Assembly: GCF_003050935.1 (NCBI RefSeq) | Contig: NZ_QAOX01000002.1 | Span: 434,001-498,000, forward strand | Origin: Luteibacter sp. OK325 | GTDB taxonomy: Bacteria > Pseudomonadota > Gammaproteobacteria > Xanthomonadales > Rhodanobacteraceae | Direction: 5' to 3' | DNA length: 64,000 bases | Shown here: positions 5,713 through 38,848 of the stretch, piece after piece | Layout: each line of letters begins with the position of its first letter | Position numbering within the stretch: position 1 is the stretch's first letter | Notes under the pieces: generated by a model | Told to the model about the DNA's origin: nothing | What the model saw: only the letters and a program-made list of their open reading frames with translations | Databases searched by the model: none | Made by a program: the position numbers and the translations under genes

Positions 5713-7653
5713 TCACGCCGTTCCGCGTATGGCCGCAAGCAAGGCGTCGCGACCGAACGGCTTCTGCAACTGCACGGCGATTCCTGCCGCAGCGACCGGC
5801 AACTCCGCGTAGCCGCTCGCAAGCACCACGCGCAGGCCGGGCCGCATCGTGGCGAGCCTGGCGGCAAGCTCGGACCCGGTCATGCCGGGCATCGCATGAT
5901 CGGTCACGACGGCGACGAGTTCACTGATCGTTTCCAGACTTCGGAGTGCTTCGTTCGCCGAGGCCGCGCCACGCGCGTCGTAACCGGCATAGTTGAGCAT
6001 CTCGACCGCCGTGGAGAGGACGAGCGGATCGTCGTCCACCACGAGGATGACAGGCAGTGGCCCCAGGGTCTCCGAGATAGCCCTGATAACGCGGGTGGGC
6101 CCGGCAGGAGCGGTAGCCGGCAGTGTCGCGGCTCCCAAGGGTGCAACGGGCAGAAAGATCGAGACGGTCGTGCCACCGGTCTCGCTGCTCTCCAGTTGCA
6201 GGGCCCCACCTGATTGCTGGGCGATGCCGTGCACCATCGACAGACCGAGGCCGGTGCCTTTGCCGACGCCCTTCGTCGTGAAGAAAGGCTCAGTCGCGCG
6301 GGCGAGCGTCGCAGCGTCCATGCCCAAGCCGTTGTCGGTAATCGACAGGCGTACGTACCTGCCGGGAACGACATGCAGGATATGCGGGCCGTGAACCTCT
6401 TCGGTCACTGCCCGGATGGTGATGACACCGCCGTCCGCCATGGCGTCGCGGGCGTTGACGCAAAGATTGAGGACGCAGAGCTCGAGCTGGTTGATGTCAC
6501 CGATCACATCGGGAAGTGCGAGAGGAAAACGGACTTCGATCGCGATGGACGGGCCTAGCGATGTGCGTAGGAGGTCCGACATGCCCGAAACCAGCGTGAT
6601 GATATTGACCGACTCCAGGTGCAGCTGCTGGCGACGCGCAAAGGCGAGCATGCGCTGGGTCAGGCTGACCCCGCGCCGCACGCCGCTCAAGGCGTTGCCG
6701 ACCAGGCGATTCATGCGCTCCGGCAATTCGACGTGGTCGCGCATGAGTTCCAGGTTGCCTTGCACCGCCATCAACAGGTTGTTGAAATCGTGCGCCACAC
6801 CACCGGTCAGCTGGCCGACCGCTTCGAGCTTCTGCGACTGGAAAAGCGCCTCGCGTGCCTCTTCCAATGCTAGTGCGGAGGCACGTCGCTCGGTGACGTC
6901 ACGGGTGACCTTGGCAAAGCCGATGACCTTGCCTGCATCGTCCGTAATGCGGTCGATCACCACGTGCGCCCAGAAACGGCTACCGTCCTTGCGCAGACGC
7001 CAGCCTTCGGTTTCGATCCGTCCTTCGCGCACCACGGCCTCGAGGTTGGTCGTCGGTTCGCCGCGCGCGACATCTTCCGGGGTGAAGAACGCCGAATAGT
7101 GGCGTCCGATCACTTCGTGAGGCGCGTATCCCTTGATCCGTTCGGCGCCCGAGTTCCAGCTGGTGATGTGGCCGCCGGGATCGAGCATGTAGATGGCGTA
7201 GTCGGCCACGCCCTGGACCAGCACGCGAAACTGCTCCTGGCTGTTCCTCAGTTCCTCGTCGACGCGCTTGCGTTCGGTGCGGTCACGCATGACCACGCCA
7301 AAGCCGAGCGGCGTGTCGCCATCGCGCACGGGATCGACGAGGATCTGCGCCCAGAATCGCGAGCCGTCCTTACGCACCAGCCAGGTGTCCAGCTCACTGC
7401 GCCCTTCGCGAAGCGCCAGGTCGAGCAAGGCCGCGGGTGCGTCAGCGTCGTTATCGTCGCCTGAGAACAGCAAGGAAAAAGGAGCGCCGACCATGTCCTG
7501 GGCGGCGTAACCGGTGGCATGAAACGCGCCAGCGTTCCATGTCGCCACGGAACCCTCCGGTTGCAGCCAGAAAATCGCGTAGTCCGAAATGCCTTCGACA
7601 AGCCGGCGGTAAGCGGAATCGTCCATGGTCGTGGGGTCGGTCGGAGTGCGCAT
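5713..7653 (-). CDS. PAS-PAS hybrid sensor histidine kinase with receiver domain
   Basis: About 646 residues, without an obvious transmembrane segment, so probably a cytoplasmic sensor. There are two consecutive PAS domains with WNAGAFHATGYA and WNSGAERIKGYA cores. Each is followed by a PAC-type segment (RKDGSRFWA). Next comes the dimerisation box GGVAHDFNNLLMAVQGN with the phospho-His, an ATPase with LNLCVNARDAM, DNGLGMD and GTGLGLSMVHG, and a C-terminal receiver (VVDDDPLVLS, phospho-Asp in VTDHAMPGMTG). The receiver has no output domain, so phosphate must pass on to another protein. No partner is adjacent. The start is uncertain among 7680, 7653 and 7626. Confidence 0.9.
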   Translation of the reverse strand: MRTPTDPTTMDDSAYRRLVEGISDYAIFWLQPEGSVATWNAGAFHATGYAAQDMVGAPFSLLFSGDDNDADAPAALLDLALREGRSELDTWLVRKDGSRFWAQILVDPVRDGDTPLGFGVVMRDRTERKRVDEELRNSQEQFRVLVQGVADYAIYMLDPGGHITSWNSGAERIKGYAPHEVIGRHYSAFFTPEDVARGEPTTNLEAVVREGRIETEGWRLRKDGSRFWAHVVIDRITDDAGKVIGFAKVTRDVTERRASALALEEAREALFQSQKLEAVGQLTGGVAHDFNNLLMAVQGNLELMRDHVELPERMNRLVGNALSGVRRGVSLTQRMLAFARRQQLHLESVNIITLVSGMSDLLRTSLGPSIAIEVRFPLALPDVIGDINQLELCVLNLCVNARDAMADGGVITIRAVTEEVHGPHILHVVPGRYVRLSITDNGLGMDAATLARATEPFFTTKGVGKGTGLGLSMVHGIAQQSGGALQLESSETGGTTVSIFLPVAPLGAATLPATAPAGPTRVIRAISETLGPLPVILVVDDDPLVLSTAVEMLNYAGYDARGAASANEALRSLETISELVAVVTDHAMPGMTGSELAARLATMRPGLRVVLASGYAELPVAAAGIAVQLQKPFGRDALLAAIRGTA

Positions 7654-7733
7654 GGCGTCAAGGTACTGCCTCCGGCCCACTACCTCGTGAAGGCTTCTTC
7701 ACATGGCGCATGGAGACGGGGAGCGGAGGTGGC

Positions 7734-34172: not shown

Positions 34173-35813
34173 TCAGCCCAGGGCTTTATCGACCATGGAC
34201 TGGGCTTCCTCGAGCACCTTCGCCAGGTGTTCCTTGCCGCGGAAGCTCTCGCCGTACACCTTGTAGATGTCCTCGGTGCCCGACGGCCGGGCGGCGAACC
34301 ACGCCTGGTCGGACATGACCTTGATGCCGCCGATGGCCTGGCCGTTGGCCTGGTTCACCACCGCGACGATCGGATCACCCGCCAGGGTCTTCGAGGTGAC
34401 CTGCTCCGGCGCCAGTTTGGAGAGGCGCCCCTTCTGTGCGTGCGTGGCCGGCGCATCGATGCGCGCATTGGCCGGGTCACCGAGCTTTTCGGTGATCTCG
34501 CGGTAGATCTGGCCGGGGTCGCGACCCAGCTTCGCGGTCATCTCGCCGGCCAGCAGGGCGGCGGCTATGCCGTCCTTGTCGGTCGACCAGGCGGCCGCGT
34601 TCCGGGTCAGGAACGAGGCACCGGCGCTTTCCTCGCAGCCGAAGCCCAGGCTGCCGTCGAAGAGACCCGAGACGAAGTACTTGAAGCCCACGGGCACCTC
34701 GAGCAAGGGCCTGCCGAGATGCTTCGCGATGCGGTCGAGCAGGCCGGTGCTCACGGCGGTCTTGCCCACGGCGGCATCGTCGCGCCAGCCCGGACGATTC
34801 TGGAACAGGTACCAGGCCGCGGTGGCCAGGTAGTTGTTCGCCGGCATGAGCCCGGCGCTCGGTGCAACGACGCCATGGCGGTCATGGTCGGTGTCGCACG
34901 CAAAGGCAACGTCGAACTTGTCCTTCAGGCCGATCAGGCGCTGCATGGCATACGAGGACGATGGGTCCATGCGCACGCGGCCGTCCCAGTCCAGCGACAT
35001 GAAGGAGAACGTCGGGTCCACTACATCACTGACCACGGTGAGGTTCAGTTTGTAGCGGTCGCCGATGGCTGCCCAATAGTGCACGCCGGCGCCGCCGAGT
35101 GGATCCACGCCCATGCGCACGTCGCTGCCGCCGATAAGGTCAAGGTCGAGCACATCGCCGAGGTCGTCGACATAACGCTGCAGGAAGTCGTACTCGATCG
35201 TGCTCGCCGCACCCTGCGCCTGCGCGAATGTCAGGCGCTTCACCTCGCGCAGGCTGCTCTCAATCAGGGCGTTGGCACGTGCGGCGATCCACGAGGTCGC
35301 ATCGGTATCCGCGGGGCCACCGTGCGGTGGGTTGTACTTGATGCCACCACTCTCCGGCGGATTGTGCGACGGCGTGATCACGATGCCATCGGCCTTTCCG
35401 CGCTCACGGCCATGGTTGAACGCGAGGATAGCGTGGGAGACCGCGGGCGTCGGTGTGAACTCGCCGCCCTTGGAGACGTGCGTGACGACGTGATTGGCGG
35501 CAAGCACTTCGAGCGTGCTCTCGAAAGCGGGCTTCGACAAGGCATGGGTGTCGATGCCGACGAAGAGCGGGCCATCGATACCGGCCTGGGCACGGTAATC
35601 GCAGATCGCCTGGACCACGGCCCAGACGTGCCACTCGTTGAACGAGCGATCGAATGAGGAGCCACGATGACCGGAGGTGCCGAAAACCACACGCTGCTCG
35701 GGCACCGAGGGATCGGGCCGCAGGTCACGGTAAGCGGCAAGAAGCGCAGCGATGTCGACCGGCTGGATCTCAGTTGCGGGCTTGCCCGCGAGCGGACTGA
35801 TCTTGGCACTCAC
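34173..35813 (-). CDS. pgm: Phosphoglucomutase (alpha-D-glucose phosphate specific)
   Basis: A 546-residue enzyme interconverting glucose-1-phosphate and glucose-6-phosphate, linking central metabolism with polysaccharide synthesis. The phospho-Ser loop is ITPSHNPPESGGIKYNP, the metal loop holds DTDHDRHG, and the substrate loop is CEESAGASF. I start at GTG 35813 (VSAKISPLAG) because AAGGAG lies 9 bases upstream and the length then equals that of E. coli Pgm. The ATG at 35861 has no comparable ribosome site. It is downstream of the RcsB-like gene on the same strand. Confidence 0.95.
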   Translation of the reverse strand: MSAKISPLAGKPATEIQPVDIAALLAAYRDLRPDPSVPEQRVVFGTSGHRGSSFDRSFNEWHVWAVVQAICDYRAQAGIDGPLFVGIDTHALSKPAFESTLEVLAANHVVTHVSKGGEFTPTPAVSHAILAFNHGRERGKADGIVITPSHNPPESGGIKYNPPHGGPADTDATSWIAARANALIESSLREVKRLTFAQAQGAASTIEYDFLQRYVDDLGDVLDLDLIGGSDVRMGVDPLGGAGVHYWAAIGDRYKLNLTVVSDVVDPTFSFMSLDWDGRVRMDPSSSYAMQRLIGLKDKFDVAFACDTDHDRHGVVAPSAGLMPANNYLATAAWYLFQNRPGWRDDAAVGKTAVSTGLLDRIAKHLGRPLLEVPVGFKYFVSGLFDGSLGFGCEESAGASFLTRNAAAWSTDKDGIAAALLAGEMTAKLGRDPGQIYREITEKLGDPANARIDAPATHAQKGRLSKLAPEQVTSKTLAGDPIVAVVNQANGQAIGGIKVMSDQAWFAARPSGTEDIYKVYGESFRGKEHLAKVLEEAQSMVDKALG

Positions 35814-35965
35814 CGAAGCTATCTCCTTGGGCGGTGCACGCACGGCACCTCGACCCGACATTGTAGGCCGCGCCGCTGAACGGAGTTGTCAATGTTTTCA
35901 GAATTCTTCCATGTCGCCTACGTCATCACGCCGCTATCGTGACGGCGGTCTCTCGCCCGCGAGTC

Positions 35966-36604
35966 CTAAAGCCGCAGCCGGTCGATGTATTCAAAGATTT
36001 CCGCATCCGTTTCGAGGCCGAGCTTGCGCATCGCATTGGTTTTCTGCTGACTGATGGTGGAGAGTCCCCGCCCGGTTTCCCGGGCGATGTCCGTCACACT
36101 ATTGCCGCCGGCGAACAGGCGAAGGATCGTCACCTCGCGCGGCGACAGATCCGCCAGTGTTCCCGACTTTCCCATCGGCGTGCCCGGCGGCGCGCCGAGC
36201 AACGCCCGTACCGATGATCCGAGGTAGACATGGTTCGACACGATTTCCACCAACGCCTCCGGAATTTCCCGCGCATCGCCGGACTTGCCGATCAGCCCGA
36301 GCACACCCGTCGCGAGGATCTCCCGATAAAGCGCCGGATTGGCCAGGGTGGTAATGACCATCACGGGGAGTGCCGGAAACCGCCCGCGCAGCTCCGCAAG
36401 CAAGGCCAGGCCGTCACGGCCCGGTGCGGGCATGCTGAAGTCCGTAATCAGGGCATCGCAAGGGGTGTCGAGCAGCAGCGCGAGCAACTCGTCGGGCGAC
36501 TGCGCCTCGCCCGCGATAGTGGCCAGGCCATCTTTGGCCAACGCCAGGCTGAGGCCTTTGAGCACGACGGGGTGATCGTCGGCCAGCATAACGCGGTACA
36601 CCAT
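35966..36604 (-). CDS. RcsB-like LuxR-family response regulator
   Basis: A 212-residue regulator. The receiver has LADDHPVVLKGLSLAL and the phospho-Asp in ALITDFSMPAPGRDG. The C-terminal helix-turn-helix is LSPREVTILRLFAGGNSVTD, then STISQQKTNAMRKLGLETD. The DHPVVL start, the ITDFSMP-x-x-x-x-DG spacing and the SQQKTNAMRKLG recognition helix are closer to RcsB than to NarL/FixJ regulators. ATG 36604 has AAGGA 7 bases upstream. The divergent neighbour is an ATPase-Hpt protein, its likely phosphodonor. Confidence 0.9.
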   Translation of the reverse strand: MVYRVMLADDHPVVLKGLSLALAKDGLATIAGEAQSPDELLALLLDTPCDALITDFSMPAPGRDGLALLAELRGRFPALPVMVITTLANPALYREILATGVLGLIGKSGDAREIPEALVEIVSNHVYLGSSVRALLGAPPGTPMGKSGTLADLSPREVTILRLFAGGNSVTDIARETGRGLSTISQQKTNAMRKLGLETDAEIFEYIDRLRL

Positions 36605-36631
36605 GAGTGATCCTTTCCCGAGGGCGCGAAG

Positions 36632-37486
36632 TTGAGCACATCGCGTATCGGTACGCCAAGCTGGAGACACTATCTCGCACGCGTGACACGACTGTTCGGC
36701 AGCCTCGCGCGCCGCTTCGAACGGCTTCGTCCGGTCGACGACCTGCCAGCCCTGCTCGCCGAACTTGGTCGCCGTTATGCGCCGCTGGCCAGGGCCGACG
36801 AAACCGCGCTGGAACTGGACGTGGATCCCGCCGTGGCACCCGATCTGACCGGTGCGATGGATGAACTGGGAACGGTTCTGGGTAGCCTGCTCGAGCGCGC
36901 GATCGACGTCGCGGCGGGTGGTTACGTTGCCTTGCAGGTGGACCTCGTTGGCGAGACGCCGACCAGCCAGACGCTGCACCTGACCGTGGCCGACGATGGC
37001 CCTCCCACGCTGGCCACTGATCCGAAAATGCTCATACCGAAGACCTCGATCGAACGTCTCGGTGGCCACCTCCAGGTCGAGTCAGGGCCCGAGGTCGGCA
37101 CGCGCGTCATCGTCGAACTGGCCTTCGCCATGCCACGACGCCTGCCACGTGTGGATATCGACGCACTGAGGTCAACCCTCGGAGGCCAGGCCGCCCTGGT
37201 CGAAGTGATCGCCGCGCTCGACCTGGCGCTCAGTCGCGACCTCACCGATCTCGAAAGGCTGCTTTCGGAAGGCGGCGTCGATCATCTGCAAGCGTGGCTG
37301 CACCGCGTTTCCGGTGTGCTCGGCATGGCCGAAGCCAGCGAACTGGCCCAGGCGGGGCTACTGCTGGAGTGCGACCTTGCCGACGGCCGCGGCGATGCGA
37401 TCGACCGCGCGATCGGTAGCTTCGGCGAAGACGCCGCAGCCGTCCTGGCCCTGCTTCGCGACCACCGCGACGGCGATCGGCTATAG
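36632..37486 (+). CDS. Degenerate kinase ATPase domain fused to Hpt domain (RcsD-like truncated phosphotransfer protein)
   Basis: A 284-residue cytoplasmic protein. Residues about 60-165 look like a histidine-kinase ATPase fold that has lost key residues. The N-box position reads GSLLERAIDVAAGG without Asn, the G1 box is ADDGPP, and no GLGL box is seen. Residues about 175-280 form an Hpt domain, with the probable phospho-His in WLHRVSGVLGMAEASELAQA. There is no sensor, membrane segment or HisKA box. This resembles the back half of RcsD. The start TTG 36632 has GAGGG 7 bases upstream; only 27 bp separate it from the divergent RcsB-like ATG. Confidence 0.75.
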   Translation: MSTSRIGTPSWRHYLARVTRLFGSLARRFERLRPVDDLPALLAELGRRYAPLARADETALELDVDPAVAPDLTGAMDELGTVLGSLLERAIDVAAGGYVALQVDLVGETPTSQTLHLTVADDGPPTLATDPKMLIPKTSIERLGGHLQVESGPEVGTRVIVELAFAMPRRLPRVDIDALRSTLGGQAALVEVIAALDLALSRDLTDLERLLSEGGVDHLQAWLHRVSGVLGMAEASELAQAGLLLECDLADGRGDAIDRAIGSFGEDAAAVLALLRDHRDGDRL

Positions 37487-37496
37487 TTTCGGGGCC

Positions 37497-38848
<1,352 letters not shown>

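Follow-up and report, generated by a model that had tools for sequence, protein, structure and literature searches.

Luteibacter sp. OK325 carries a divergent gene pair consisting of an RcsB-like response regulator and a partner that joins a degenerate kinase ATPase domain to an Hpt domain. The pair is located in a window of 64,000 nucleotides, by which the whole stretch of DNA analysed is meant, and its features are listed in Table 1. It probably forms a dedicated phosphorelay output module, in which the pseudokinase-Hpt protein acts as an RcsD-like adaptor of separate origin, taking phosphoryl groups from an unlinked hybrid kinase and handing them to the regulator. An earlier note on this DNA had read the two genes as a miniature Rcs-like phosphorelay. 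Both frames are intact at the positions it gave, and orthologous divergent pairs in 21 of 23 Luteibacter genomes place the arrangement above chance. Among the open-licence texts of PubMed Central, a scope that leaves subscription journals outside, no paper on such a regulator/pseudokinase-Hpt pair was found.

Table 1. Features of the regulator/pseudokinase-Hpt locus (positions within the window).
Feature	Position	Strand	Remarks
RcsB-type response regulator, 212 aa, ATG start at 36604	35966..36604	-	Frame intact; Pfam, solved-structure sequences, tree
Receiver (residues 5-118) and LuxR/GerE helix-turn-helix (residues 153-203) of the regulator; phospho-acceptor D55 aligned to RcsB D56	within 35966..36604	-	
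Pseudokinase-Hpt protein, 284 aa, TTG start	36632..37486	+	Frame intact; orthologues
Degenerate kinase ATPase (CA) domain, residues 34-168, without N-box Asn and GxGLGL lid	36731..37135	+	
Hpt helical domain, residues 172-282	37145..37477	+	Pfam, family profile, model, structural matches
Codon of H224, presumed phospho-acceptor histidine in WLHRVSG	37301..37303	+	Invariant in 21/21
Intergenic region between the divergent start codons, 27 bp	36605..36631	.	
DNA block at the TTG start, GGGGCGCnnAGTTGAGCACA-like	36621..36640	+	Common to the 21 loci
Sir2-type deacetylase gene (sir2), 10 nt downstream of the pseudokinase-Hpt gene	37497..38324	+	Possible shared transcript
Phosphoglucomutase-like gene (pgm; presumed name), syntenic flank only	34173..35861	-	Kept in 21/21 loci

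The regulator is assigned to the RcsB type by several comparisons. Pfam detects a receiver (Response_reg, 3e-17) and a helix-turn-helix (GerE, 3.3e-8), and the acceptor aspartate is intact, as is required of RcsB response regulators. RcsB is the top NCBIfam model with 115 bits, which is under the equivalog cut-off of 235 bits, and among the sequences of solved structures RcsB is likewise the best match (113 bits), ahead of NarL (41 bits) and EvgA (37 bits). All 21 orthologues have D55, and so do all 17 further RcsB-like regulators of the alignment. A tree built from 44 regulators separates RcsB and all of its relatives used from E. coli EvgA, FimZ, NarL, UvrY, and UhpA by a split with 100% support. 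The earlier assignment to the RcsB type is thereby borne out, and the grouping with NarL/FixJ and away from RcsB, which the earlier note had named as contrary evidence, did not appear. The motifs it quoted hold in part: the receiver motif ITDFSMP and the recognition-helix motif are present, the latter agreeing with RcsB at 8 of 12 positions, whereas the spacer before DG in E. coli RcsB aligns as five residues and not as four.

The 21 Luteibacter regulators form one clade with 100% support. Their sister, also with 100% support, is a regulator of another genus (genome G032; 51% identity), and this regulator together with the kinase-paired regulators of the order is placed nearer to them than E. 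coli RcsB, whose position within the RcsB-like side of the tree is supported by 65% only. Since its sister is the G032 regulator, the Luteibacter protein is, as judged from sequence, RcsB-like, yet E. coli RcsB is not its nearest relative. Two side observations can be added. The column of RcsB Lys180 is occupied by Ser in all 21 Luteibacter regulators of the locus (GRGLST) and by Lys in most related regulators, hinting at a changed DNA recognition. Furthermore, an RcsB-like regulator at L084 5110-5943 (G000:C4:304256-304876) stands beside E. coli RcsB in the tree with weak support (65%), and no complete kinase gene was found in the 15 kb around it.

The pseudokinase-Hpt protein consists of two domains. 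The profile searches proposed in the earlier note match both of them, albeit under the curated Pfam cut-offs, as HATPase_c reaches 23.7 bits (7.1e-5) against a cut-off of 26.4 and Hpt (PF01627) 16.8 bits (0.0082) against 24.6. Receiver and HPTransfase families are not matched in Pfam, and neither are HisKA and sensor families at E ≤ 10, as expected from the earlier description of a protein without sensor or HisKA box. AlphaFold modelling with the 21 orthologues yields a two-domain model with a mean pLDDT of 87 for the whole protein and 93 for residues 169 to 284 alone. In structural comparison, residues 34 to 168 of the model match the kinase ATPase domains of GacS (Z 18.8) and RetS (Z 18.4), with ETR1 next (Z 18.3). 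The C-terminal model matches Hpt proteins, the top two with Z 14.8 and 13.5, and 13 of its first 14 structural matches are named Hpt-type proteins, while the remaining one, 4euk, has an uninformative title. Because the weakest of these 14 scores no higher than the first non-Hpt helical bundles (Z 11.3), weight is given to the top rows only. Foldseek returned no match for the C-terminal model at E ≤ 0.001, the best having an E-value of 0.045. Structure prediction thus gives a kinase ATPase fold and an Hpt fold, and the lack of an Hpt four-helix bundle, which would have spoken against the earlier reading, was not observed. The ATPase match stops at residue 168 and the first Hpt helix starts at residue 176. 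Only 33 residues precede the ATPase domain, and the protein is predicted to be soluble.

The ATP site was read by eye in the 21 orthologues against an alignment of kinases. The column of the N-box asparagine, which precedes Ala in kinases, holds Arg, His, Leu, Gln, Lys, Gly, or Ala and in no orthologue Asn; in the L032 orthologue, an Asn is found one column earlier. A complete DxGxG motif and the GxGLGL box are also absent from all 21. The divergent ATPase fold and dead ATP site described earlier are therefore features of the whole orthologue set, and an intact ATP site was not encountered. Kinase activity could have been kept through an unusual ATP site, as the ATPase fold is retained, modelled with high confidence, and under purifying selection. 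This is nevertheless extremely unlikely, given that these motifs are missing in 21/21 and that the protein has no HisKA domain to phosphorylate.

Conservation is strongest in the Hpt part, which is modelled as a helical bundle with a conserved presumed phospho-histidine followed by xxxG. The motif W-L-H-R-x-x-G-x-L-G is nearly invariant, with H224 and G228 present in all 21 orthologues, in accordance with the Hpt domain and plausible histidine proposed before. Within HRVSG, Ser or Ala occupies a position at which many Hpt domains carry Lys, a point against the adaptor role, as are the sub-threshold Pfam matches of both domains and the Foldseek result. The mean pairwise identity is 55.6% in the Hpt part, as against 40.5% in the ATPase part, and 29% in the N-terminal 35 residues. 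In nine pairs chosen by hand out of 210, dN/dS ranges from 0.18 to 0.34 for residues 36 to 282, from 0.15 to 0.35 for the Hpt part, and from 0.18 to 0.60 for the ATPase part. In view of the conserved Hpt motif, the identities, and these ranges, the gene is maintained under purifying selection, the constraint being weaker in the ATPase part. That it is a decaying, functionless fragment has next to no likelihood: it does resemble a truncated kinase with a poorly conserved N-terminus, but the open frame, the start codon, the place, and the Hpt residues are retained in 21 genomes, and the dN/dS values argue against decay.

The relatives of the pseudokinase-Hpt protein were sought beside related regulators, at 16 loci (L073 to L088) picked by hand among the top regulator matches. 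In 13 of the 16 loci, the RcsB-like regulator has as its neighbour a complete kinase, in which the HisKA, N-box, and GxGLGL motifs are present, and in 12 of these 13 the kinase lies on the opposite strand; at L073 (G032), L084, and L085, no complete kinase was found beside the regulator. The kinase of L077, with 1257 aa, is complete and is adjoined by two G029 regulators of the tree. In 14 unorthodox kinases of the order, both the ATPase and the Hpt segment are matched by the profile of the 21 orthologues, with full scores of 24.9 to 66.7 bits. These are 12 of the 13 kinases (that of L077 being left out) and one each from G015 and G020. E. coli EvgS, RcsC, and RcsD score 19.9, 15.6, and 15.1 bits with the same profile. 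The higher scores of the 14 kinases are partly expected, since these are phylogenetically closer than the E. coli proteins. The fairer comparison is that RcsD, by the family profile, does not rank above RcsC or EvgS. Moreover, the NCBIfam RcsD model gives the pseudokinase-Hpt protein 8.9 bits (E 0.31) against a cut-off of 634. Kinship with RcsD is not supported by these scores.

The earlier note had given the protein the role of RcsD, and the inactive ATPase core with an Hpt domain stands, while a tie to RcsD itself is not supported. Because the RcsD scores are poor and the unorthodox kinases score best, the RcsD role may be analogous, and the protein looks like an unorthodox kinase reduced, separately from RcsD, by the loss of the sensor, the H-box, and the receiver domains. 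The simplest history would be the deletion of these domains from an unorthodox kinase. An intermediate kinase was not seen; as the sister regulator in G032 has neither a kinase nor an Hpt protein adjoining it, a reduction in place was not caught at an intermediate stage. The alternative is a true Rcs system that shares a common ancestor with the enterobacterial one, its partner being a truncated RcsD. The grouping of the regulator with RcsB is in line with this, as is the combination of pseudokinase and Hpt domain, which RcsD also has according to PMC13317618. Common ancestry is very improbable, however, considering the two sets of RcsD scores, the closer relationship of the regulator to that of G032 and the kinase-paired regulators of the order than to E. 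coli RcsB, and the stretch from residue 168 to 172, which leaves no space for an ABL domain.

The distribution of the pair was followed in 23 Luteibacter genomes including that of the window, with partner matches at E ≤ 1.3e-28. In each of the 21 genomes that have it, the regulator is encoded divergently beside the partner, and the pair is absent from G015 and G020. The orthologous locus of Luteibacter sp. dw_328 shows 73% identity. The profile of the orthologues was also run on 233 genomes of the family; the ten best first-look candidates scored per genome included no further member, and the profile matches outside the genus at E ≤ 1e-6 are frames of at least 645 aa, i.e. large kinases. The combination of pseudokinase-Hpt protein and RcsB-like regulator appears so far confined to one genus, Luteibacter.

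The gene order is pgm on the opposite strand, regulator, partner, and sir2 on the strand of the partner; pgm, whose product we take to be phosphoglucomutase-like from its sequence, is found in all 21 loci and sir2 in all 20 loci reaching that far. In these 20, the stop codon of the partner and the start of the sir2 gene homologous to that of the window are -7 to 24 nt apart. A tree of the sir2 gene alone places G015 and G020 in one group (91%) next to the genomes that have the pair. In G015 and G020, about 6 kb containing other genes separate pgm from sir2. From the distribution, this tree, and the layout of the locus in G015 and G020, a single event probably accounts for the pattern, either a gain of the pair in the main Luteibacter clade or its loss from the other clade. 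On the far side of pgm, the two pair-less genomes contain an unorthodox kinase together with two RcsB-like regulators encoded divergently (L123 2338-7308 and L124 1763-6563). A sir2 gene is also located near the sister regulator in the genus of G032, with an LTA-synthase-like gene, named from its sequence, between the two. According to PMC5651002, E. coli RcsB is deacetylated by the sirtuin CobB, with Lys154 and Lys180 as known sites. As an analogy for the sir2 neighbour, CobB-type deacetylation fails at these sites, because the two columns are occupied by Arg and Ser, respectively, in all 21 Luteibacter regulators of the locus.

The TTG start codon of the pseudokinase-Hpt gene is kept in all 21 loci. 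The gap between the divergent starts, 27 bp here, measures 68 to 72 bp in 19 of the 20 other loci and 45 bp in one. Around the TTG start, at 36605-36640, the DNA is much more conserved than the following 35 residues of the protein. A scan of the genome found no second copy of the GGGGCGCnnAGTTGAGCACA-like block with fewer than three mismatches; at three mismatches, there are four further matches compared with two in a reversed-pattern control. With a single near-match, at the locus itself, and these numbers beyond it, the block was dropped as a regulon operator, and it is probably the translation start and not a regulon site.

Several known systems can be compared with the Luteibacter pair. 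As in enterobacterial RcsD, an inactive kinase core is followed by an Hpt domain, the gene adjoins that of an RcsB-type regulator, and autokinase activity is not expected. PMC13317618 describes RcsD as an inactive kinase that has an ABL and an Hpt domain, and PMC13317618 and PMC5651002 describe it as a membrane protein with a periplasmic sensor and the ABL domain. In contrast, the 33 residues ahead of the ATPase domain in the Luteibacter protein match no sensor family at E ≤ 10 and seem to leave no room for a membrane anchor, and in the model no ABL domain would fit before the Hpt domain. Furthermore, the Luteibacter genes are divergent, and the sequence kinship is with unorthodox kinases. With the unorthodox hybrid kinases of the order (EvgS/BvgS-type), the protein shares homologous ATPase and Hpt segments and the divergent position beside an RcsB-like regulator. 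Unlike these, it is devoid of sensor, transmembrane part, HisKA, and receiver, and its ATP site is broken.

A similar division of labour is reported for P. aeruginosa PA14 in PMC3842833, where the hybrid PvrS acts on RcsB through the Hpt domain of RcsC, so that the Hpt domain comes from a relay/phosphatase kinase and the phosphate from another hybrid. RcsC is a complete unorthodox sensor there, whereas the Luteibacter protein keeps only the pseudo-ATPase and Hpt domains. The free Hpt module HptB of P. aeruginosa receives phosphoryl groups from several unlinked hybrid kinases, as stated in PMC5085249. The Hpt part has HptB among its best structural matches (Z 13.5), but HptB consists of one Hpt domain and lacks an ATPase domain. 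In alphaproteobacteria, the phosphotransferase ChpT has a degenerate kinase ATPase domain, and it transfers through a HisKA-like helical domain ahead of the ATPase fold. In the Luteibacter protein, by contrast, the presumed phospho-histidine is placed in a true Hpt domain after the ATPase fold, and neither HisKA nor HPTransfase is matched in Pfam.

For the Luteibacter module, the domains, the broken ATP site, the conserved His and Asp, the conserved pairing, the purifying selection, and the kinship with unorthodox kinases were observed, whereas the phosphotransfer, its donor, a docking role of the ATPase domain, and the regulon are inferred. An Hpt protein with no kinase and receiver of its own would have to be charged by another receiver, in agreement with the earlier idea of a phosphodonor outside the pair. 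An unlinked hybrid kinase without its own Hpt domain would phosphorylate its own receiver, from which the phosphoryl group would pass to H224 of the pseudokinase-Hpt protein and on to D55 of the divergently encoded regulator, which would then bind DNA. If the donor kinase acted as a phosphatase, the flow would be reversed. The ATPase domain is presumably unable to hold ATP and is most likely retained as a surface on which the donor or the regulator docks.

In the genome, 20 frames join a kinase ATPase domain and a receiver. The 15 of these without a Pfam Hpt match are possible donors, although one (C4, 1187 aa) does carry an Hpt domain by the profile of the 21 orthologues. The adaptor role is favoured because of these 15 frames and the analogies with PvrS/RcsC, HptB, and RcsD. 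Among the 15 is the PAS hybrid at 5713-7680 of the window, which the earlier note had suggested as donor. It is present in 17 of the 23 genomes at E ≤ 1e-120, the only threshold used, and four of the six genomes without it carry the pair, namely G005, G006 (80% complete), G013, and G018. The PAS hybrid is thus ruled out as an obligate partner at this threshold and is a weak candidate for the donor. Since the genus has just two pair-less genomes, the co-occurrence of the PAS hybrid with the pair has little power. A 253-residue frame with receiver and Hpt domain and without a kinase, at G000:C7:152667-153338 (L009), is another possible relay part.

An Hpt domain is able to drain a regulator as well as to feed it. 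The main rival to the adaptor reading is accordingly a protein that serves mainly as a sink or regulator-binder, draining phosphoryl groups to H224 or holding the regulator inactive; the regulator would then receive its phosphate from another kinase or from acetyl phosphate. The dead ATPase domain and the missing receiver would suit such a role, and a free Hpt fragment of RcsD is reported to alter Rcs signalling in Yersinia pestis (PMC10191623). The sequence is equally compatible with draining and feeding, but the genome is rich in hybrid kinases without an Hpt domain that are in need of a partner, and the sink is considered rather unlikely.

Among kinase relatives, RcsD is the textbook example of reduction to the phosphotransfer part. 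The Luteibacter protein would represent a second reduction, unrelated to the first, that removed even the sensor, membrane anchor, dimerisation, and receiver domains but kept the dead ATPase domain. It would thus be a minimal natural test of the role of a pseudo-ATPase domain in a relay, and its small size and 21 natural variants would make it easy to assay. The case would also illustrate how linear two-component systems turn into branched ones. As a more tentative suggestion, Luteibacter may possibly have evolved its own RcsD, a soluble pseudokinase-Hpt hub whose dead ATPase domain is a docking platform and which connects one or several unlinked hybrids to one RcsB-like regulator. If this is true, a repeatable route to branched phosphorelays would be for an unorthodox kinase to lose sensing and catalysis.
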